DNA from: Tetradesmus obliquus
Lineage: Eukaryota; Chlorophyta; Chlorophyceae; Sphaeropleales; Scenedesmaceae
Direction of reading: 5' to 3'
NCBI GenBank assembly: GCA_030272155.1
Contig: CP126191.1
Location: 9,570,501 to 9,634,500, forward strand
Length of the DNA: 64,000 nt
Position numbers and translations under genes: made by a program. The notes beneath the pieces are model-generated. The model was not told the DNA's origin, made no database searches, and was given only the letters and a program-made list of their open reading frames with translations. Below, one piece after another: positions 28,055-60,778 of the stretch; the first letter of the stretch is position 1; every line of letters starts with the position of its first letter.

Positions 28055-31000
28055 TCACACCTTGATTTGGGTGGTAAATGGGGCGTAGTTAGGATGAGTC
28101 ACACCCGTAACAGTGTAACTGCATGTGCCACTGTTGAACTTGTTGGACGTCAAGGTTGCCACCCCGGTGCTGAGAGTTGTGGCAGACATGGTCTGGGAGG
28201 ATGTGCCCACTTGCCACGTCAGATTGACAGTAGCACCGCTGACGAGTGTGCTAGTGCCAGCGCGTCTCACTGTGACTTTTGCTGTGCACTTGAAGCCATT
28301 GCCGCTGTTGGTACGCGTTGGCGGTGCGGGAGAGATGGCCATTGTCGGCAGTGGGGCGGGGCTGCGGCACAAGCAGCAGACGTGCGTGCAGAAACTGAGT
28401 GCCAAACACTGCTGTCTCTAGAAGTGTACATACACGTCAGCGGCAGTCATTACATTACATTGCATTACATGCTCCACTCAACGAGGAGTGGAAACCCCAG
28501 TCAGGAGCCAACGAGAGGCTCATAGGGGGAGGAAACATCGACGAACAACTCATCATCGTCCAAACCGTCAGATGAAAACGCAGAAAGAAAAACTCATCAG
28601 CATCATCAATAGCTTGAGCAATAGCCTGAGAGGACAGAAAGACCTCAGGATCAGTGTCCGGGTGACACCGCATCAGATAGCAGCAGTGCACAAAAGCGGC
28701 CACCATAGCAGGTGCCTGCTTCATAAAAGTGATCATGTCATCGCCTGCTGGGTGGCAACCAGCAATAGTAGCCCATGTTTGTGACGAGTCCCCGAAGGGT
28801 TCGAACAACATAGCAAATCGCTCGCGGACTGGTGCATAGAAAGGGCACTCAAAGACCATATGAAACTCATCCTCAACAACCTCAGACTGGCAGCCAGGGC
28901 GTAGGCACACCCTGTCACTTCGCGGCACAGGTGGTCGCTGCCACCTGCCACTGCAGACACGTAAATCATGAGCACCCAAACGGAAACGGGTCAAGGACCC
29001 CAGATGCTCTCTGTTGATCCCAGCAGTTTGAGAGACATAATCTGGGCACCATAAAGCTGGGCTCACAAACAGCATGTCAGCAGAAGAGCATGCCGCAAAC
29101 CACCGCTCATAAGTACTGTAGACACCATGACCACTAGCAGCATCACGCGGGTTGACAGGGCACCCCTGCCACTGCTGATACAAGACGCCATCAAAAGCAC
29201 GCGCTATGGTTTTCAGATCCAGAGACTGGAAGTTTTGCAGCCTTTGCACGGCATCTCCCAGCTGCTGTGAGTGGGCATGCACATATTCAAGTACACGTCG
29301 CAACTGTGTGCACCACACTAATGATCATTGACCCATTTGAATTGCTGTCAATGGAGCCGCTGCAGCTGCGTGTGCATCAGCAAGAAACTAGCACAAATAA
29401 ATGACACGTATACGTACGGCTACGTAGCCCGATCAAAGCCAAATGAAACAGCGCAACCGTCTGCATCTGTCACAAACACAGATCTGGGGGATGCTGTGGG
29501 TGCATGCCTGCTGGAAGCTGCTGCTGCGCTGCATGCAGACGCCCGCGAGAGCAAATGATATTAACACACCTTGGGGAAGGAGATGGTGATGGGGATGGGG
29601 AAGGCAGCACCGCCTGCGGAGGCTGCCAGGCAGGAGGATTGCCCACAAACGGTGCTGACAAAGCAAGCGTGAGCGCGTACTGGCCAAGACAGCCGTAGTT
29701 TGAGTAGTCGCCTGCTGATGGGTCGACTGCGCCAGTGCCTGCCACAGACACGTAGTACCAGCCTGGCAATGGCAAATTGACAGTTGTAGCAGGCACCCCA
29801 AGGGTGGTGGCTGTACATGTGGCACATGTGCTCCCTCCTCCGGCGTTGATGCTGGCGGTTGGGTTGGCCGTTGCTATCGGCTGGCCTGTGGAGTTGAACA
29901 CTGTGATCAGCATGTCCAGATTGGTGCGCTGATGATACACACCGTAAGCAACGTTCCACAGATCTGCCCAGTCAGCGAGCACCTGGAAGCAACAAGAAAG
30001 GCATGTACAGTAGCAGGGTTGGTTGTGCGTCTACTGTCGGAATCCTGAGTAAATGTATGTTTGTATGTGCAGTGCAGTTACGCGCAGCTGCCAGGGGCAC
30101 CAGCACCAGAACTTGATTTTGATTTATGCAGCAGCATTGAATGTGCTGCATGTTGTGGAGATGTCGATGGATCAACCTCAGGCCCAATGATAGCTGATAT
30201 AGCCGCCAGACGCTGCAAGGTGTGCATAGTTCTAACATGCGGTACAATGTCACACCGACATGCCGCTTGCCGCACACGAATGCATCAGTCATAAGAGCGG
30301 TGTGTGATCCAATACATGCAATGCAGTTGTGTTATGCCAACTGTAATAGCTCCTGCCACAGGCCGCTTCCATCAGGATTAGCAGCGGCCGGGACACCTCT
30401 GTGGTGTCACTGTGGTGCCACTGTGGTGTCACTGTGGTGCCACTGTGGTGTCACTGTGGTGTCACTGGTGTCACTGTGGTGTCACTGTGGTGTCACTGGT
30501 GTCACTGTGGTGTCACTGTGGTGTCACTATGGTGTCACTGTATACCCAGGAGGCTCACCTGACCCGTGATGCTGGCGGTGCCGCCAGTTGCATAAAACCT
30601 GAAGACATCTGCCACGTTAGCCTGCGCGACAACGCCTGCTGCGCTTGCCGTGCCGTCACTGGCTGTGGCAAGGAGCGTTGCTGTTGCCAGGCTGGTGCCA
30701 ATGAGGGAGGGGGCGCGCCCGAGTTTGGAAGCAAGTATGAATGTGTCATCTTCGGGCTGTTGGTTTGTTGGACCCCAGGGGATGCAGCAGCGCGAGAGCG
30801 GAAAGAACAAGAGGAGAGCAGGAGAGGCAGAGAAAAAGGCAGGCGCAGAGTGTGTTGAAAGGAAGGAGAAAGATATGTGCCGTCAATGATTTGAACTGCT
30901 GCGGTCGATGCAGACACTTACAGCTGCAGCTGGGCACAGTTGTGCAAGCGCACACACACACGTTGTGAGCTGTGCATTGCAGCTGCCGCACAACCATGCC

Positions 31001-34694: not shown

Positions 34695-35911
34695 TAACAG
34701 GACATGAGACAGGCTACAAGCAGTGACAAGCACGATCGCTTGCGGACGGGGAGACTACTGAGGGATCCTATGCACAGCATGGCCTGCTGACTCTGCAAAT
34801 GCTGCCATGGCCTGTCTGCCGTTGCAATTGCCTGCGTGCTGGAGTGCATTCCAGCAGTGTTGCTAGCGCCACCTTTGCAAGCAGCAGCACAATTGCAGTG
34901 TAAAGATGGACATTCTAGCATGAAAAATGCAAATCTGCGCACCTTCAAGCATTGCTGGACCAGGAGACCCCATGCAGTGTGCTGCATACATGGCACAAGC
35001 CTGGTGTGCTCAGCCAGGCACAGCCTGCCCAGCAGCACTGCTGCCCTGCTTGACAGCGCTGCCACAAGATGTTATAACATGTTATAACACATGATCAGGT
35101 GCTGACTCAGCGCTGCACTGCCCTGGGCAGCACAGCTCAGGTGAGGATGCAGCACCGCTCACCAGATCTTCTTGGCGGATGCACTCCTGCTGCTCAAGTT
35201 GAAGGCTTGTGCTGCAAGAGGGTCTGGCTCATTGGCAACAGCGTTTGCTGCTGTGGCAGAGCGCGCGCGTGCTCGGCGTGCAGCGCGCTGCACAGTGCTG
35301 GTACCGGTGCTGCTGCTTGCTGCCAGGCCCTCACAGGCGAACAGCAGGCCGCTGTTGGTGACATCAATGCCCTGGTGTGGAGCAGTGCAGGACAGCAGGA
35401 ACAGCAGCCAAAGAGGTGGGATCGGAAATGGGAGGGTTATTCTCGTGGGCTGAGCAGTTGCTTTGCTGTCCACACACAGTACCAGACACGGTACAGTACT
35501 GCTGGCAGCAGCAGTCTGTTGCAGGCCTGGTGACTGGACCCCCTTCTGTCAGACTTCTAGCTGGCACCTATGTCGCGATCAGTACGCTGTAACGTTGCTT
35601 ACGAAGTCAGGGTCAGCATCCAACTGGTCCGCCAGGCTCCTGAGCCCTTTTTCCGGGCCGAAACTTTCCATCAGTTTGGCCACCAGCCCAGGCTCAGAAG
35701 TGGCCAAATAGGCCATTGCGCCGCCAAAAGTTGAGAAATCAAAAATACGGCCATCTTTGTTGCGGCTGCTTTGGTCCTTGGGGGGCCCGCGAGACAGACG
35801 CCTCGTGCGTGGGTCACTGCTCTGCAAAGTGTTGCGTCTGTGGCTGTGGCCAGCAACTACGCAACTTGAAATCAGGATAAGAACAATAAACAGCACCGGT
35901 TGAAGCCGCAT
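28055..35911 (-). CDS. Secreted metzincin-like zinc metalloprotease, tandem copy A
   Basis: Thirteen exons in phase: 35911-35603, 35371-35163, 34556-34472, 34202-34177, 33437-33418, 33141-32998, 32582-32509, 31942-31897, 31541-31459, 31133-31065, 30756-30559, 29982-29570 and 28361-28055 (660 aa). Order: signal peptide (MRLQPVLFIVLILISSCVVA), basic propeptide-like region, KIWLDFDGCILTGTSWN, VAEDYAPFDVDVTT, then HELGHTFGLSHD (HExxHxxGxxHD zinc site, near residues 304-315) and the Met-turn IMGVGY. Next come the jelly-roll pre-peptidase C-terminal domain ([12 protein letters not shown]...GWYYVSVAGTG), a short PSPSP linker and an Ig-like C-terminal domain. The codon for the catalytic Glu is split by intron 8. 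Bacterial proteins share this domain order; the substrate is unknown (cell wall or matrix is a guess). Exon 7 is shorter and diverged (74 nt) compared with copies B and C. A LINE lies in intron 12. The exon 6 donor (GTAGGT) is the weakest site. Confidence 0.82.
28440..29298 (-). mobile_element. 5'-truncated LINE (non-LTR retrotransposon), copy 1, in intron 12 of protease A
   Basis: Minus-strand open frame of about 285 codons matching copy 2 (38.9-39.8 kb) almost base for base. The protein resembles the C-terminal end of a LINE ORF2: it has a CCHC-type motif C-x4-C-x9-H-x4-C (CLRPGC ... EFHMVFEC) followed by basic and hydrophobic segments. No reverse transcriptase core is present. The 3' end carries short TGTAA/TGCAA-type repeats in place of a poly(A) tail. 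The element lies in the same orientation as the host gene. Similarity to copy 2 breaks off at about 29298, taken as the truncation point. Confidence 0.75.
30398..30541. repeat. 11-bp minisatellite TGTGGTGTCAC in intron 11 of copy A
   Basis: About a dozen units of TGTGGTGTCAC or TGTGGTGCCAC, some shortened, begin just beyond the donor of exon 11. Confidence 0.9.
31155..31195 (+). repeat. (CAG)/(CATCAG) run before exon 10 of copy A
   Basis: Mixed AGC and ATCAGC units (CTG-rich in the sense of the gene), 20-60 nt upstream of the acceptor of exon 10. Confidence 0.7.
31379..31456. repeat. (CACT)n tetranucleotide array in intron 9 of copy A
   Basis: About 18 CACT-type units, some CGCT, directly after the donor of exon 9. 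Confidence 0.9.
31551..31606 (+). repeat. (CAG)n before exon 9 of copy A
   Basis: About 17 CAG units (CTG in gene sense), ending 7-10 nt upstream of the acceptor at 31542-31544. Confidence 0.9.
32006..32030 (+). repeat. (TAATG)n, LINE-tail-like remnant in copy A intron 7
   Basis: Four TGTAA units without any recognisable LINE body. They are identical to the tail repeats of the LINE copies but on the plus strand. This could be a very short dead-on-arrival insertion or an independent microsatellite. Confidence 0.5.
33951..33990 (+). repeat. (CAG)n in intron 4 of copy A
   Basis: About 13 CAG units (CTG in gene sense) between microexons 4 and 5. Confidence 0.9.
34564..34692 (+). repeat. CAG-rich tract before exon 3 of copy A
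   Basis: Interrupted CAG/GCAGAT units (CTG in gene sense) starting a few nt beyond the acceptor of exon 3. Copies B and C have the same kind of tract at the same place. Confidence 0.85.
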
Positions 35912-35942
35912 AGCGACCTTGTGCTGAATGTTGCCGCACTTG

Positions 35943-35954
35943 CGATACGATACG
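35943..35954 (-). promoter_or_regulatory. Conserved promoter motif of copy A
   Basis: CGATACGATACG lies 31 bp upstream of the ATG. The same motif occurs at the same distance in copy B, and as CAATACGATACG in copy C once the inserted 5-kb element is discounted. It could be a core promoter or 5' UTR element. Confidence 0.55.
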
Positions 35955-36472
35955 GGAAGTTGACAGCAGCAAAAGTGAATGAAATATGTGTTTGAACGAT
36001 TGAGTGTACTTTTAAGATTGAATTTTGACAGATGGAAGTGGTACTGGCCCTCTCTTCACGAGCAAAGCTCCTGTGACTGTCTGACAACATGACACTGCCA
36101 TGACACGGACTCAGCGCAGTGACCGGGGCCAGCAGTGCAGGGAGCAGGTAATCTCGTTCATCAATCATTCGTTGTTCAAACTCTGTTGTACCAACAGGCA
36201 CAACCCACGCGAATCTCCAGCGTTGGAGCTTCCTTGCACGTGGTACAGGGCCTGAAGGCCTGTCCTTCAGCCTGTAGGCCTTACAGTGTAGGGCTAGGCC
36301 CTGCAGTGCAAGCTCACAGTTACCATAAGGACAGCATCCTGTTGCTGCACTCATTGCAACTTTATGTGAAAGCACACAGATATGCTGCCAGTGCAGTCTA
36401 TCCGTAGTCTTAGGCGAGGGACACGCCATGAAACAAACAGAGTAGGTGGCGCGTCCCACGGCAATCACAGCC

Positions 36473-38886: not shown

Positions 38887-39840
38887 TCTACATTACATTA
38901 CATTACATTACATTACATGCTCCACTCAACGAGGAGTGGGAACCCCAGTCAGGAGCCAACGAGAGGCTCATAGGGGGAGGAAACATCGAAGAACAACTCA
39001 TCATCGTCCAAACCGTCAGACGACAACGCAGAAAAAAAAAAAACTCATCAGCATCATCAATAGCTTGAGCAATAGCCTGAGAGGACAGAAGGACCTCAGG
39101 ATCAGTGTCCGGGTGACACCGCATCAGATAGCAGCAGTGCACAAAAGCGGCCACCAAAGCAGGTGCCTGCTTCATAAAAGTGATCATGTCATCGCCTGCT
39201 GGGTGACAACCAGCAATAGTAGCCCATGTTTGTGACGAGTCCCCGAAGGGTTCGAACAACATAGCAAATCGCTCGCGGACTGGTGCATAGAAAGGGCACT
39301 CAAAGACCATATGAAACTCATCCTCAACAACCTCAGACTGGCAGCCAGGGCGTAGGCACACCCTGTCACTTCGCGGCACAGGTGGTCGCTGCCACCTGCC
39401 ACTGCAGACACGTAAATCATGAGCACCCAAACGGAAACGGGTCAAGGACCCCAGATGCTCTCTGTTGATCCCAGCAGTTTGAGAGACATAATCTGGGCAC
39501 CATAAAGCTGGGCTCACAGACAGCATGTCAGCAGAAGAGCATGCCGCAAACCACCGCTCATAAGTACTGTAGACACCATGACCACTAGCAGCATCACGCG
39601 GGTTGACAGGGCACCCCTGCCACTGCTGATACAAGACGCCATCAAAAGCACGCGCTATGGTTTTCAGATCCAGAGACTGGAAGTTTTGCAGCCTTTGCAC
39701 GGCATCTCCCAGCTGCTGTGAGTGGGCATGCACATATTCAAGTACACGTCGCAATCTACAGATGGCGGCTCCGTCCTCTTTGTCCTTGAGTTTTTTTATC
39801 TCGCTGTGTTCTGCTGCCATGCAGGGCTGCTGCGGCGCCT
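38887..39840 (-). mobile_element. 5'-truncated LINE, copy 2, directly downstream of protease B
   Basis: Minus-strand open frame (38903-39820) with the same LINE ORF2 C terminus as copy 1 (C-x4-C-x9-H-x4-C) and about five TGTAA units at its 3' end. Sequence from about 38903 to 39755 is nearly identical to copy 1, so both are young. The 5' junction is uncertain; it may reach to within about 20 bp of the stop codon of copy B. It therefore forms the 3' UTR or immediate 3' flank of that gene. Confidence 0.75.
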
Positions 39841-39856: not shown

Positions 39857-46599
<6,743 letters not shown>

Positions 46600-46630
46600 A
46601 GAGTCGGTACCTTTACTACTGCCCCACTTT

Positions 46631-46642
46631 CGATACGATACG
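46631..46642 (-). promoter_or_regulatory. Conserved promoter motif of copy B
   Basis: CGATACGATACG, 31 bp upstream of the ATG at 46599, as in copy A. Confidence 0.55.
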
Positions 46643-46975
46643 ACGAGCTCGATGTGGAATAGCGAAGGTGGTTGGTGTTCAACTGATTAAATACATATCA
46701 AAAAGCCTTGTTTGACTGTTGAAGGTGTTGCTGGCCGTTGCATCGTGGGCAGAGCTCCTGTGACTGTCTGACAAACTGACACACGCAAACAAGAGCGCAG
46801 TGACTGCAGCAGTAAAGGGGGCAGGCATTCTGAGACAGCAACATTGATTGCTGCGGCTCTATGATGATATCAGGGCGGCTATACATGAACCTCACTTATC
46901 TCCAGCATGGGAGCTTCCTTGAGTGATTGAGTGACTACCCAGGCAGCTCTGCAGCTCCTGGGTAAGTTAAGGCTA

Positions 46976-54523: not shown

Positions 54524-55744
54524 GCAGCAGCAGCAAACCACAGATCCCGAGGCAGGGTCACACAACATGCAGGCTGCGGGTGTGGCAGCTTGTGTTAGGG
54601 GACGCAAGTGACTGATTAATTCTAGAGTTCTCTGCAGCACAGCCCCTTTGGACTCAGCAGCAGCTGCCATGGCCGCCATGTAACACTGTGTTAACTTTGC
54701 CAGCGCCCAGCAACATCACCGCTGTTGGGAGCTTTACAAGCAGCTGCAGTGCACCGCCTGTGAACTGACACGGCTAGCCTGTGCATCCAGGCTCTCCTTT
54801 GTCCAAAGCCACACTGCTAGCGCCAGCAACAACACGGCGCGTGTCAAACCTGCATTGTGTTGAGCAGCACGCGCCGTGTTGGTACGCTTCAGAAGCTTTT
54901 CAATGTGGTTTGCAGCATGAGCACAACAAGGCCACTGCTTCCTCACCAGATCTTCTTGCGTGATGAACTGCGGCTGGCCAAGTTGAAGGCCACTGCAGGA
55001 TCAGGCTCACTGGCCAGTGAGGTAGCAGCAACAGCAGCAGCAGCAGCAGCAGTAGGTGCTGTGGCAGCACGTGTGTGGGCGCGGCGTGCTGCGCGCTGCG
55101 TGCTGCAGCTCATTGCCAGGCCCTCACAGGCGAACAGCAAGGCGCTGTTGGTGACGTCAACACCCTGGCAGGGCAGAACGTGGGGTTACAATGGCAGCAA
55201 ATGAGGCAGGAATGCCAGCTTGACACAGGCAGTGTTTGGTTGAGCGGTATCTACTGCTGCTGTTGCTGCTGTTGCTGCTGTTGGCCAATTACACAATTCC
55301 CTGAAATGTGCAGCAGCAGGCGATGCATCTGGCAATCTGGCAGGCAGCAGTTGTAACCCAGGTGACTCAAGCCCCTTCTGTTAGGCTTCCAGCTGCTTGT
55401 CTGTACGCACGCAGCTACTGTAAAGGATGACTTACGAAGTCAGGGTCTGCATCCAGCTGGTCTGCGAGGCTCCTGACCCCTTTGTCTCTTCCGTAAGTGT
55501 TCATCAGTTCAGACAGCTTCCCAGGCTCAAGCCTTGCCAGGTAGGACATTGCACCGCCAAAGGACGAGAAATCAAATATCGTTTTATCCTTGTTGCGGCT
55601 GCTTGGGTCCCTGGTGGGCCCGCGAGCCAGACGCCTCGTGCGAGGTTCACTGCTTTGCAACTGATCGCGTCTGTGGCTGCTGCCAGCAGCTATGCTGCAA
55701 GACATTAGAAGATAAATGAGCACTAATATCGGCTGAAGCCGCAT
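48794..55744 (-). CDS. Secreted metzincin-like zinc metalloprotease, tandem copy C (frameshifted; duplicated exon 7)
   Basis: Exons: 55744-55436, 55164-54947, 54448-54364, 53899-53874, 53317-53298, 52806-52663, exon 7 as either 52139-52063 or 51947-51871, 51333-51288, 51015-50936, 50677-50609, 50285-50101, 49905-49535 and 49088-48794. Signal peptide MRLQPILVLIYLLMSCSIAA. HEVGHNMGLSHD zinc site and Met-turn IMGVGYYTPLSQW are intact. The PPC domain reads RSNLDMVITLLDG and YYVSVAGAGAGDAAVTGYSNYGS (shown in parts), followed by a Pro-Ser linker and an Ig-like domain. Exon 11 is 185 nt, not a multiple of three. After EDET the frame of the conserved PPC sequence is resumed two bases out, so the gene may be a recent pseudogene, or there is a sequence error. 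Its promoter is split by a 5-kb transposon. Exon phases elsewhere agree fully with A and B. Confidence 0.78.
49543..49618 (-). repeat. (CCCCAG)n hexanucleotide repeat coding for Pro-Ser
   Basis: About 12 units of GGGGCT on the plus strand in exon 12 of copy C. The coding strand reads CCC AGC, alternating Pro-Ser. Confidence 0.95.
50691..50745 (+). repeat. (CAG)n before exon 10 of copy C
   Basis: About 17 CAG units (CTG in gene sense), ending about 10 nt from the acceptor of exon 10. Confidence 0.9.
51019..51060 (+). repeat. (CAG)n before exon 9 of copy C
   Basis: About 14 CAG units (CTG in gene sense), abutting the acceptor of the zinc-site exon. Confidence 0.92.
51871..52139 (-). other. 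Duplicated alternative exons 7a and 7b of copy C
   Basis: 7a (52139-52063) reads GGVAYVNVFGRADNTYYQPA...; 7b (51947-51871) reads GGIAYVNVFGTSYNSYYSPA.... Both are exactly 77 nt, enter in phase 1 and leave in phase 0, and have their own AG acceptor and GT donor. Including both would shift the frame. This is the arrangement expected of mutually exclusive exons. Copy B has one exon 7 of the same length (43698-43622). Confidence 0.8.
53605..53755. repeat. 24-bp minisatellite in intron 4 of copy C
   Basis: About six tandem units of GGCTGTAGCTGGGGCA plus an 8-bp variable part (CATCATCT or TATCATCT). Because the unit is a multiple of three, both strands stay open, but no gene is implied. Confidence 0.92.
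54458..54540 (+). repeat. CAG-rich tract before exon 3 of copy C
   Basis: Interrupted CAG units (CTG in gene sense), ending within 10 nt of the exon 3 acceptor. Confidence 0.85.
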
Positions 55745-55775
55745 CGAGTCGGTGCACCAACTGCTGACGCACTCT

Positions 55776-56498
55776 CAGCTGGGCATGGTACAAACGTAGC
55801 ATCTGCATTTTGCAACAAATCAACACAGCTTGCAAGCAGACAGCCATGCTGGCAGAGCAACCTGCTGTATGTGGCAGGCACAGTAAGGCACAGCTGCCAG
55901 TGCTGCTGCTTTGGTTTGCTTGCATCCCAACTGCACAGCAGGGCCCCCACCTGCCAGCAGCAGCAGCTTCAAACTGCTAGTAATTTTGAGCTCCAGAATT
56001 CGCCTTGATCACACAAGAAGGATGTTTGCAGGAAACTGTGTAGAATACTAGTCCTCAACAAACTCTGTGCAGCCACACTAGCTGTACGCGCGCAGCAGCT
56101 GCCGGTGGGCCTGAAGCGGTGTTGCGCACCATGTAACAGATATGACAGCTGAAACTGTATGTGCAGCGCACAGCGCCAAGCAGCAGAGCGCAACAGCAGC
56201 GGCAGGGCACTTGGCACACCAGAACTGCAGTGCCTGATCAGCCAGCAAGGGAAGCCCAGAAGTAATACATTACACATCAAAACATGTTGCAGGCAGCAGC
56301 ACCCACAGCAACACTCTACAGCGCAAGTTAACATATGTAACAGTCGAGTCGGGGCACTTCAGGGCAACGTGTTTTTAGCACTTTTCTTGCAGCACACTGT
56401 GCCACTGCTAACAGCTCAAATTGATTTAGATTCGTCGTTGAAAGCTTGACATTTATAGGTAGGCCACTTGTTCGCTACGTTTGTACCATGCCCAGCTG
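55776..56498 (+). repeat. Left terminal direct repeat, 723 bp
   Basis: Appears identical to 60052-60774 by eye. Ends are CAGCTGGGCATGG... and ...CCATGCCCAGCTG. No coding capacity recognised. Confidence 0.9.
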
Positions 56499-56843
56499 AG
56501 ACCGGTCAAACTCCACGATGCCGCAGGCTGTTGTTTGACCTGACCAGTTACTTCTGTTCACACTGCTGCTAGAAGCACAGCTAACATATCCATATGTTTT
56601 GGATTCATGCCTGCAGGGGGGCTGTCCATGGTGCGCAAGCACCCTTCGGGATGGAAGAGCAACCGCAGCACCACGGCCATGAGGGTGGCGGCGGTGGTGT
56701 GTGTGATAATGGCTTTGACCACAGCTGACGAAAAGTTTACGCCCGCATATTATTACAGAGAGCAGACCCTGACTACGCCAAGGAGGTACACGGGGACCTG
56801 AACCGGTTCTGCAAACTTCAAGAACTTCACAGCAAACGGCACA

Positions 56844-58804
56844 GTGGCTACACCCAAGCATGGCGGCAGGCCCTCAAATGTCCCACATGCTGTCGCCTTC
56901 CATGCCAGCACAATATTCAAGGCTGGCAAGGTGGTAAAGGCCTACCCATCTGCAGATTCAAAGAGAAAGGTTGATGTGCACGTGTGGTGGACTTCAATCG
57001 AAGTCGCATGTCAGGAAAATGACACACTGCGCCAGCTGTGCACTGACTACAACATCACACCCAAGAGACTGCTGAAGTACATGAAATGGGCTGACCCCGA
57101 CCTGGTGCGCAGGAGAATAGATGTGAAGCTGGACTTGACAAAGATACAGAAACAAAGGCAATAAGCAGCAGCTGCGGCGCTGTGGCAGAAGTACCAAAGT
57201 GACCCCGACATGCTGCAGCGCATATATTTCATTGATGAGTGCAAATTCTGGATGTCAGACCTGGCAGGCGGCTCCGTCAAGGTCTATTGTGATGCACACG
57301 ATGAAAACGTGCATGCTGTGCTGCCATGCAAATGGATGCGCAAGGGCAAGGACGCAGAGCCGGTCAAGTTGCACTTTGTCTGTGCCGTCAACGCTGTGCA
57401 CGGGCCCGTCTACTGCAAGTTTGTCACCGGCACAACAGACAACAAGGACCATGCTGGCAACCTCAATGTACCATACATGGTGAGTGTGCGCTGCTACTGC
57501 GCAGGCGCCTGCCATTGAAAGACATGCCAGCCCTGCTGTACTGTGTAGTAACAGTCCCGCAGTGCTTTTTTTAGTGCTGTAGTGAAGCTGCAGCGCTGCC
57601 CGTCCTCTGCTGTGAACATAACAGCAGAGTAACTTGGTGACAGTACAATGACACTACCTGCAGCAGCAAGCTGGAAACCAATGTGCAAGGATTGGTGCAT
57701 GTCAAATCCGCGCGTGCTCACGCGCAGCACAGTGCCCCCTGGCTGCAGCCAGTTGTCATATGCTGCAGCGCAGAACTCAAAGTCGCGCTCCAGCACCTGC
57801 TGCCTGCTGCTGCTGTAATAACCCTTGTCATGACATGAGCCATCAGCTTGAATCAGCATGTTGTGCTGTGCATGGAAGAAATCAATCCGCCCATCCCACC
57901 AGTCCACTGCTACCTGAGCACACATACTGCTGCTGATGCCTAACCAGTACAGCATGCACACCAGCTGCTCCTCGCTTGTGTGCATGTAGCCCATGCATGT
58001 GCCAACCATATCAGCCAGCACACATGCACACATCTTGCACTGAAGCGCTGCTGCTGTGGCGACTGCACGCGGCGCGCAGAACTTGAAGTGCTGCACACCT
58101 GGCAAGCAGCCAGTCAAGCCCCAGAACAATCTCTGCCCCCTCATAGACTTGGTGATGTATCTGACCTTGTCTGCACTAAGCCTGATGTAGAAGCGTCCCA
58201 TCGCATCCATCCACACCGCTGCTTTGCGCTCCTGCGCTGCTAACAAGGCTGCGCGCTGCCAATCCGACAATTCTTGCACCTGCAGTTGAAGGACAAACCA
58301 ACCCAGCAGGCCAAGAGCATGACTCAGCTGGAGTTTGTTCAGTGCATGATGGAGATCAAAGACATAGCCAACCAACAGCAGGCGCAGCGCGGCACTACGC
58401 CGCTGTACATCTTTGACAACCCAAGTGTTCACCTGGGGAAGGATGGCCTACAGATGTTGGTTGCAGGTGGCATCAATGAAGATCAACTGCTGCACATTGC
58501 ACCCTACTCCCCAGATTTCAACAAGCCCATTGAACATGCATTTGGCAGCCTCAAAGCAGCCTTCCGCAACTACTTGTATAACAGCTGCCAGCTGGGTGGT
58601 GCTGATGTGAAGCCGCGAGACCTGCAGCACGGCCTGTACAACACCTTTATGAAGATCACAGCTGCATCTGTCATGGCTGATGTATTGAAGCTGCCAGATT
58701 TGTGGAACATGGTGCGCAGCCGCAAGAGGAGTCTTTGTGTGTGCCGAGACGGGAAGCAGCGCCGCGGCACTGCTGGCGACTACCCCAGGAAAGACCAGCG
58801 CTGA
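56844..58804 (+). pseudogene. IS630/Tc1-mariner-like DDE transposase, interrupted by a stop
   Basis: Two coding blocks: 56844-57479 and 58286-58804, joined in phase 0 across a GT-AG intron of 806 bp. The first contains the N-terminal region (NITPKRLLKYMKWADPDLV) and the first catalytic Asp in IYFIDECKFW. The second has LYIFDNPSVH (second Asp) and APYSPDFNKPIEHAFGSLK (Glu), the classical P-Y-S-P-D-x-N-x-x-E signature. Spacing is DD38E. An in-frame TAA at 57162-57164 separates the N-terminal region from the catalytic core, so this copy should not make a full protein unless the stop is bypassed. The N terminus is unclear: another in-frame stop at 56799-56801 closes a possible upstream extension from 56607. 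Known role: cut-and-paste transposition. Confidence 0.75.
57494..58432 (-). CDS. Nuclease-like ORF (VSR/DUF559, PD-(D/E)XK-type), antisense in transposase intron
   Basis: Uninterrupted 312-codon frame on the minus strand, nearly filling the transposase intron and overlapping its second exon if the first Met (58432) is used; a later Met near 58217 would keep most of it in the intron. The central part reads GRIDFFHAQHNMLIQADGSCH, followed by SSSRQQVLERDFEFCAAAY and VLRVSTRGFD (listed in parts). The order Asp - hydrophobic strand - Q-x-D-G-x-x-H - R-D - L-R-V resembles the core of VSR/DUF559-type endonucleases, in which that Asp and the E/Q-x-D pair bind metal. Partner of the transposase is an inference. 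A spurious ORF is possible but unlikely given length, composition and motif order. Confidence 0.55.
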   Translation of the reverse strand: MNTWVVKDVQRRSAALRLLLVGYVFDLHHALNKLQLSHALGLLGWFVLQLQVQELSDWQRAALLAAQERKAAVWMDAMGRFYIRLSADKVRYITKSMRGQRLFWGLTGCLPGVQHFKFCAPRAVATAAALQCKMCACVLADMVGTCMGYMHTSEEQLVCMLYWLGISSSMCAQVAVDWWDGRIDFFHAQHNMLIQADGSCHDKGYYSSSRQQVLERDFEFCAAAYDNWLQPGGTVLRVSTRGFDMHQSLHIGFQLAAAGSVIVLSPSYSAVMFTAEDGQRCSFTTALKKALRDCYYTVQQGWHVFQWQAPAQ

Positions 58805-60051
58805 GTCTGCTGTTGTGCTGCTGCATGGCATGTAGGGATTGTGGCTGTCAGCTGCATGCAAGATGGCTGGCCAGCAGTGCACAGGGTGTCACCCAGAGAG
58901 CCCTTGAGCTCACCTGTTTGAGGGCACCTGCGCTTGTCGCCGTCCTGCATGTTCGCACCGCCCGGGGCTTGGGAGGTGCTGGCACCATGCTGCTGTAGGG
59001 TGGTTACTTCCTGGTGTTCACCTGAGAGCGAGTGTGGGAACAAAATGGCATGTTCAGAAGCTTATTGTATGAGTAAACTACATGTGGATGTTGTGCTTTG
59101 GTGCTCAGACTTGTCAGGAGTGGTTCCTGCTTCAAACAACTGCTGCAAGGCAGCAAGGCACTTGGTGGCCATTTCACATACAGGCATTTGCAGTCATGCT
59201 GAATTGCCGAATGTAATGGTAAAACTCCTGGCATAATTCAACTACGCTCGTAGCTCTTGAACATGGCTCCTGCTGCTGTCACTCGCGTTAGTTGTGACGA
59301 CTGTTGGCCTGCCAAGCGATATGCACGGAGCCTGCAAGAAACCTCGCGGTAAATCATCTTTTATATTTGATGATTGATCTAAGCATGGCTTGAGCCGAAA
59401 TAAACTGCGGTATGGTGAAGAACTTCAAGACGGAAAGGTGCCCTGAAACAAGCCTGCTCCGAGCCACACAGCTGCCACGCTCCCAACTTATCATCGTCGA
59501 CACATTATGCAACGTACCTTTGGTTGAAGCACAAAACCAATCCTGAAGGGCCCTCGCAAGCCCACGTTGCAGGTGAGCCTGACGGGTCAACACGGATGTC
59601 CAGAGCACTGCAGCTCGATCGCGTTGCTGCAGCACCTGTAAACAATTTGTAATGAACATTAAACGACGTTAAACACAGCGCTGTACTGAAAGCCTTCGCA
59701 AATAAATTAGGTAGCAGCAGTGAGGCACCTGCTGGCACATGCTGCTGCTGTCACGCCCACCAACAACTGCTGTTGAAAAACACATGCCACCGTGCTTCAA
59801 AGCACACATAGCTGTAACGTTTCCTGTTGTCTGCTGCTGCTGCTGCTCCTGCCCAGGCAGATATCATATATTGCAAACAGTGCTACTGCCGCAGTAAAAT
59901 CAGCTGCATACCCAGCAGCAGCAGGAGCACATCAGCCATAGCATAAAAAGGTAGGTGTGCACTTCAGGCACCAAGTCCAGGAACAGCAACAGAAGGGATG
60001 CAGTGCAGGCTAAGAACTGCTGCAGCAAAGGCTGGCATGCAATTACAGTCT
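58805..60051. other. Non-coding interior of the 5-kb element
   Basis: No gene recognised between the transposase end and the right terminal repeat. Ends with TACAGTCT, while the interior begins AGACCGG, a 4-bp inverted match. Confidence 0.5.
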
Positions 60052-60774
60052 CAGCTGGGCATGGTACAAACGTAGCATCTGCATTTTGCAACAAATCAAC
60101 ACAGCTTGCAAGCAGACAGCCATGCTGGCAGAGCAACCTGCTGTATGTGGCAGGCACAGTAAGGCACAGCTGCCAGTGCTGCTGCTTTGGTTTGCTTGCA
60201 TCCCAACTGCACAGCAGGGCCCCCACCTGCCAGCAGCAGCAGCTTCAAACTGCTAGTAATTTTGAGCTCCAGAATTCGCCTTGATCACACAAGAAGGATG
60301 TTTGCAGGAAACTGTGTAGAATACTAGTCCTCAACAAACTCTGTGCAGCCACACTAGCTGTACGCGCGCAGCAGCTGCCGGTGGGCCTGAAGCGGTGTTG
60401 CGCACCATGTAACAGATATGACAGCTGAAACTGTATGTGCAGCGCACAGCGCCAAGCAGCAGAGCGCAACAGCAGCGGCAGGGCACTTGGCACACCAGAA
60501 CTGCAGTGCCTGATCAGCCAGCAAGGGAAGCCCAGAAGTAATACATTACACATCAAAACATGTTGCAGGCAGCAGCACCCACAGCAACACTCTACAGCGC
60601 AAGTTAACATATGTAACAGTCGAGTCGGGGCACTTCAGGGCAACGTGTTTTTAGCACTTTTCTTGCAGCACACTGTGCCACTGCTAACAGCTCAAATTGA
60701 TTTAGATTCGTCGTTGAAAGCTTGACATTTATAGGTAGGCCACTTGTTCGCTACGTTTGTACCATGCCCAGCTG
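60052..60774 (+). repeat. Right terminal direct repeat, 723 bp
   Basis: Same length and, by eye, same sequence as 55776-56498, in the same orientation. Followed by TCT and the displaced promoter of copy C. Confidence 0.9.
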
Positions 60775-60778
60775 TCTG

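Follow-up and report, generated by a model that had tools for sequence, protein, structure and literature searches.

A Probable Composite-Like DDE Transposon With Long Direct Terminal Repeats in Tetradesmus obliquus

Introduction

What kind of mobile element places a DDE transposase gene between long, identical direct repeats and duplicates three bases of its target? The question is raised by an insertion of 5 kb in a 64,000-nucleotide stretch of the chlorophyte Tetradesmus obliquus genome (contig C1, positions 9570501-9634500; hereafter the window) in an assembly of 104.66 Mb and 17 contigs. Direct terminal repeats of great length are usually read as a sign of an LTR element, and the IS630/Tc1/mariner transposons have a TA target and its duplication as their hallmark. 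An earlier note, made from the letters of the window, had offered two possibilities: that the transposon type is undescribed, or that a pair of small inverted-repeat elements mobilizes the interior as a composite. The comparison of copies across the genome presented here indicates that the locus is probably a composite-like cut-and-paste DDE transposon, with short mobile elements as its ends and arrays formed by recombination between its direct repeats.

Results and Discussion

Anatomy of the Element and Its Insertion Site

The element proper occupies positions 55776-60774 of the window (4,999 bp) and consists of a 723-bp repeat (U), an interior segment (I), and a second U in direct orientation, designated U-I-U. 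The span of 55773-60777 given by the earlier note has real boundaries and includes both copies of the target-site duplication (TSD) TCT, at 55773-55775 (from flank reading and empty-site comparison) and 60775-60777 (from flank reading). Its description of identical direct repeats with inverted ends of their own, flanked by TCT on both sides, was borne out: self-comparison matched the left U (55776-56498, + strand) and the right U (60052-60774, +) at 723/723 bases, an identity that extends to 726 bases when the TCT ahead of each U is counted. Perfect 25-bp inverted ends were listed for both copies, at 55776-55800 (+; CAGCTGGGCATGGTACAAACGTAGC) and 56474-56498 (-) in the left U and at 60052-60076 (+) and 60750-60774 (-) in the right U, such that the outer U ends also bound the whole element with terminal inverted repeats (TIRs), a trait of the IS630/Tc1/mariner group. 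U is thereby a short TIR element itself, with termini CAG...CTG (terminal sequence CAGCTGGG), in which no gene was recognized and neither of the two open frames scanned had a Pfam match.

The interior segment, delimited by copy alignment at 56499-60051 (+), begins with AGAC and ends with GTCT (inner borders U/AGAC...GTCT/U) and measures 3,553 bp in the window versus 3,559 bp in five other aligned copies. Its stretch at 59201-59900 (700 bp) differed by about 3-5% among three copies (window, L034, and L035), compared to about 0.2-1.2% in the transposase exons and intron of the same copies, suggesting mosaic copies or constraint. A nested TA-flanked element inside I was considered and rejected, as the 25 that were listed among 72 inverted pairs held only U ends and CAG-rich low-complexity pairs. 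The window has a G+C content of 55.9% with abundant CAG repeats.

The comparison of empty and filled sites proposed earlier was possible within the window. The joined flanks aligned over the insertion point with two element-free paralogous stretches, at 35502-35961 (+; unoccupied site near 35940, 74%) and 46292-46650 (+; unoccupied site near 46628, 78%), both alignments extending about 20 bases beyond the junction, and the unoccupied site is accordingly one seen in paralogues. A small open frame on the minus strand (55415-55744) has the insertion about 30 bases upstream of it, in a stretch for which both paralogues exist; the element landed beside one member of a set of three such copies. The surrounding sequence from about 25000 to 55750 is a repeated gene region with many self-matches of 67-88% between 25-36, 36-47, and 50-55.7 kb. 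It also contains an 859-bp repeat of 98.5% identity (28448-29303 and 38896-39754, with partial copies near 43.4 kb) that is accompanied by TACAT/ATGTA repeats at 38889 and 43503 and is perhaps another mobile element.

Transposase Gene and Antisense Frame

The transposase gene on the plus strand of I was delineated as exon 1 (56607-57479), carrying the first catalytic Asp and recognized by copy comparison; a predicted GT...AG intron of 806 bp (57480-58285), across whose splice the similarity to other DDE_3 loci continues; and exon 2 (58286-58804), which holds the second Asp and the Glu of a DD38E DDE_3 core according to domain match and spacing. In copy L034, joining the 293-residue exon 1 to exon 2 gave a predicted protein of 465 residues in which D212, D337, and E376 are what we take by motif to be the catalytic triad, 38 residues separating D337 from E376. 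The window sequence matched DDE_3 with an E value of 3.9e-5 and 24 bits (cut-off 28.6 bits), the spliced protein matched it at 5.2e-5, likewise below the curated cut-off, and the NCBIfam IS630 match (E 2.1e-4) fell far under its own. By tblastn, two other DDE_3 loci of the four searched in this genome were matched at E values of 2e-5 and 3e-5 by alignments that span the splice, the other DDE_3 loci of the genome being distant from this one, and a PDB search with the transposase gave no relevant match. These similarities point weakly to a DDE_3/IS630-type enzyme; the IS630/Tc1-like transposase reported earlier stands as a domain match, at sub-threshold strength and with exon 1 broken in this copy. 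A different DDE_3 family is represented by two open frames of equal score lying 9.3 kb apart (C17:1097277 and C17:1106553; L090 and L091), which could belong to one more element of repeat-bounded or tandem structure.

Exon 1 was full length and stop-free in all 134 scored copies, these being the best 134 of 473 first-look candidates and a biased sample, as copies with broken frames such as that of the window score lower. In the window, exon 1 is interrupted, so that this copy probably cannot produce the enzyme and was probably either mobilized in trans or broken afterwards. A broken gene in a cleanly inserted copy, along with the weak DDE_3 match, also favors an alternative in which a transposase from another genomic locus cuts the U ends and the DDE_3 gene of I is a passenger trapped between two short elements. 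The open exon 1 of the 134 copies, biased as that sample is, argues against this alternative, which we consider improbable in view of the searches and scars described below.

Identical direct terminal repeats, together with the solo repeats and the arrays with common repeats described below, would also suit a retroelement with 723-bp LTRs or some degenerate relative of it. This reading was rejected, and its probability appears negligible: only DDE_3 and a weak DUF559 similarity were found, with neither reverse transcriptase nor integrase, among 14 open frames of the element and the spliced protein (a scan that took in part of the short frames of I), U has CAG...CTG ends with 25-bp TIRs in place of TG...CA, and the copies display scars and flips.

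The DUF559 similarity belongs to an antisense open frame of 312 aa (57494-58432, -) found in the open-frame scan, which occupies most of the intron and was open over 310-317 codons in 6/6 copies read. DUF559 domains are restriction-endonuclease-like; the match (E 0.073) was below the cut-off, no NCBIfam match and no convincing PDB match were obtained for the frame, and structure prediction gave no reliable model (pLDDT 35.7). An open frame of this length arose in 1/300 simulated interiors, and the window holds 23 open frames of at least 250 codons. Between the window and L034 the frame has two synonymous and eight non-synonymous changes, in which constraint was not evident. The frame is a putative coding sequence, and a nuclease function for its predicted product is likewise putative.

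Solo Copies, Composites, and Arrays

The search for other copies suggested in the earlier note located the U left end at 177 genome places when up to one mismatch was allowed (85 on the plus and 92 on the minus strand; 100 places listed), and the TIR with up to two mismatches at 177 places on the plus and 181 on the minus strand. U was present in three states comprising solo copies, U-I-U composites of about 5.0 kb, and (U-I)n-U arrays with a period of about 4,282 bp. The largest array (C5:1158930-1270228) covers 111 kb and has at least 21 U left ends among those listed; array structures are given as assembled, and their contents between the borders were read in part. The array at C5:1.70 Mb terminates on the right in a piece of U joined to a portion of I (L124).

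Further copies illustrate local rearrangement. At C16:891806, 902364, and 912922 a composite plus host flank is tandemly duplicated with a 10.56-kb period, L052 and L053 having the same left flank and the same AGT border. A 345-bp U at C1:9134755-9135099 (L037 with L146) with both ends present and a TAT duplication appears to be an internally deleted derivative that either still moved or shrank in place. Relatives elsewhere were not confirmed in viral_contigs or genome_contigs, two collections in which searches detect only closely related sequences.

Loci at which I adjoins host DNA after loss of an outer U were searched for genome-wide with patterns that each see about half of such cases. The left-side pattern had no matches and the single match of the right-side pattern was a CAGTG scar itself (see below). 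Outer U copies may be rarely lost, or their losses may be repaired. The result of these two half-sensitive searches speaks against the DDE_3 gene being a passenger, and is at the same time a point against the composite reading preferred here, under which the departure of single U copies should have left some loci without an outer U.

Target-Site Duplications

Matching 3-bp TSDs were identified at 36/39 paired loci genome-wide, and chance is excluded because about 1 in 64 would be expected to match. The 39 comprise 37 tabulated loci, of which 36 match, and two putative pairs on C6. Outer ends were located by exact patterns for non-internal flanks, by U positions, and by exon-1 positions, after which the flanks were fetched. 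With locus classes resting on placed U copies, placed I copies, and spans, the duplication matched in 13/13 arrays, 17/18 single composites, 6/6 solo U copies, and 0/2 rearranged C6 pairs. Composite C16:4210713 was classed by its span and one exon-1 match, composite C16:4317053 has a truncated right U judged from spacing, and for the solo copies C7:2001, C13:3042, and C1:9134 (the last deleted to 345 bp) the reading covered the ends alone. Left out of the count were two segmental duplicates of C16:891806; the partnerless ends C16:280625, C17:1161182, and C17:1581000 (stretches L145, L143, and L144); the truncated copies C5:5968828 and C12:401329; and loci whose ends deviate from the patterns.

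The exception among the tabulated loci was C8:1662872 (TAT/TCT), whose two U copies differ at 30 columns. At C6:5866842-5870037 and C6:5917134-5921659, a U left end stands at both borders in inverted orientation, and the flanks read by eye (ACC/TCT and GGT/CTC; L147, L154, L155, and L156) are without matching duplication; these pairs appear to have been rearranged or to have arisen by another route.

The matching TSDs of the single composites suggest that U-I-U moves as one unit, and full copies of about 5 kb with 3-bp duplications, named in the earlier note as support for a single element, are thus numerous. The contrary outcome that it had considered, in which U occurs only as independent elements and the interior never moves with a pair of them, did not occur, and the independent-U reading was rejected on the same 17/18 loci. 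The data fit a unit that combines the two options of the note. Its proposal of a composite with two inverted-repeat elements mobilizing the interior holds for the composite as a whole; for U alone, mobility is less firm. U can apparently be excised, be reversed, and reside singly between target bases that it has duplicated itself, judging by the TSDs of the solo copies and by two single U copies flipped at C5:1.70 Mb, and the solo copies could in part be recombination products.

The 36 duplications were varied and followed no TA rule, the TA dinucleotide being present in 4/36. G was preferred symmetrically at the second base beyond the duplication, in 42/72 half-sites (binomial p 3.7e-8, uncorrected, for one of nine positions inspected). 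Duplications other than TA, and TSD-flanked solo U copies that carry no recognized gene, also weigh in favor of a transposase encoded elsewhere.

Scars and Flips at U Ends

Direct I-I junctions, searched for with exact I ends and 0-20 bases allowed between a right end and the next left end, were found 30 times, comprising 18 CTG, 11 CAG, one CAGTG, and no clean junction. Six contigs (C3, C5, C8, C12, C14, and C16) carry them, at about ten loci in all, and neighboring scars in one array may go back to a single event. The three bases at the ends of U are CAG and CTG, and the excision of Mos1 leaves a 3-nt scar derived from either element end; 29/30 junctions carry the form expected of a Mos1-type scar, and we infer that they are excision scars. 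A scar of mariner type is a further argument for the DDE_3 gene of I as the source of the cutting enzyme, and against a passenger.

The I segments flanking array U copies were found in both orientations. At C5:1.70 Mb, the two single U copies are reversed and the neighboring I segments unchanged in orientation (L122 and L123), and at C5:6.50 Mb both U copies are reversed relative to I. Blocks were reversed at C5:4.68 Mb (U3-I-U4; L117 and L118) and twice on C3, where they comprise U2-U6 (borders and inner members L110, L113, L158, and L149, the flanks of U4 excepted) and U8-U9 (L114, L150, and L151). Flip junctions were seamless wherever read. Recombination between TIRs or inverted U copies was considered as their source; it is possible for single U copies and takes extra steps for blocks whose outer U copies are flipped. 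Together, scars and flips fit 3-nt-staggered cuts at U ends, as in Mos1.

Long arrays of near-identical units are hard to assemble and the evidence is the assembly in place of reads, which would allow arrays, flips, and scars to be artefacts imposed on a simple 5-kb element. This is very improbable, as the scars recur at about ten loci on six contigs with the two expected sequences and all 13 arrays have a TSD at their borders.

Identity of U Within and Between Loci

Among 19 loci with at least two full-length U copies compared (a subset in the larger arrays), 15 had identical copies; of the other four, two differ at one column, L032 (C16:891806) at five, and C8:1662872 at 30. Between loci, full-length U copies differ at 0-49 columns, some pairs of loci having the same U. 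The U copies of one locus thus appear to be kept or made alike, where plain descent within a moving composite would permit drift. The earlier note had taken the identity of the repeats as a sign of recent insertion, which no longer follows; identity is common to most loci, by itself gives no date for the insertion in the window, and would reflect homogenization or block transposition.

Identity within 15/19 loci, though most loci differ from each other, and the single flanking TSD of 13/13 arrays also suit a replicative route. A circle with one U and one I would be copied into the target for a single turn, yielding U-I-U, or for several, yielding (U-I)n-U, with the U copies remade identical at each insertion like LTRs. 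We regard this as rather improbable, given that the 3-bp scars and in-place flips resemble cut-and-paste products, that a second mobility enzyme gene was not recognized in the open frames scanned, and that recombination between direct U copies, or block transposition from homogenized arrays, yields equal identity without replication. Block transposition from arrays homogenized through unequal exchange would explain the within-locus identity, and the solo copies and arrays likewise.

Proposed Mechanism

In the composite-like cut-and-paste reading, the transposase encoded by I would cut any outward-facing pair of U ends, such that U alone, U-I-U, or a longer U-bounded block would depart as a unit, and its insertion into a weakly palindromic target would duplicate 3 bp. 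Cuts three bases inside the 5' ends would leave a 3-nt CAG overhang on each flank, and joining flank to flank would produce a central A:A mismatch resolved to a CAG or CTG scar. Because both ends of the excised block would bear the same overhang, re-sealing in reverse would give a seamless flip. Recombination between direct U copies would expand single copies to (U-I)n-U arrays, leave some solo U copies, and keep the U copies of a locus identical.

This reading is the one we hold to be probable, and several observations weigh against it: the domain matches lie below their cut-offs, TA duplications are absent, 3/39 loci have no matching TSD, and the window copy is broken, in addition to the missing outer-U-loss loci. 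A more far-reaching version is unlikely, if not negligibly so. It would make U-(I-U)n the working unit of a distinct eukaryotic DDE transposon type in which every insertion renews the terminal direct repeats as identical copies, tens of units arise or travel together as one array, any pair of U ends is usable, and copies cycle between solo, composite, and 100-kb array states.

Comparison With Known Systems

The U-I-U family unites direct terminal repeats, a DDE_3 transposase, and a variable 3-bp duplication. At known positions, its arrays preserve apparent cutting outcomes, namely two kinds of scar and the reversal of single or multiple units, from which the geometry of cutting and the choice of ends could be read in the genome. 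With IS630/Tc1/mariner elements such as Mos1 it has in common the DDE_3 core, the Asp-Asp-Glu triad in DD38E spacing, short TIRs, and 3-nt scars from either element end; it differs in the variable 3-bp TSD, the weak palindromic target, TIRs located within 723-bp direct repeats, tandem arrays, and a weak family match. CACTA/EnSpm and PIF/Harbinger, the groups with 3-bp TSDs, have transposase types and termini of their own; no Pfam match to such a transposase was present in the frames scanned, and the U-I-U termini are CAGCTGGG.

LTR retrotransposons, with their solo LTRs and tandem LTR arrays, are similar in having direct terminal repeats identical per locus, solo repeats, and arrays with common repeats, and are dissimilar in that U-I-U has a DDE_3 transposase and apparent excision scars and that reverse transcriptase and integrase were not found in the frames scanned. 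U resembles MITEs in its 723-bp length, lack of a recognized gene, TIRs and TSDs, and occurrence alone, whereas most placed U copies belong to composites or arrays with the transposase gene. The bacterial Tn9-type composite transposons likewise have two direct short elements around a segment, movement of the whole, tandem amplification via the repeats, and solo copies; in contrast, the U-I-U transposase is encoded in the flanked segment with a predicted intron and no gene was recognized in the flanking elements. U-I-U would be a case of a DNA transposon residing in arrays of up to 111 kb, and would be a eukaryotic counterpart to the direct-repeat composite transposons.
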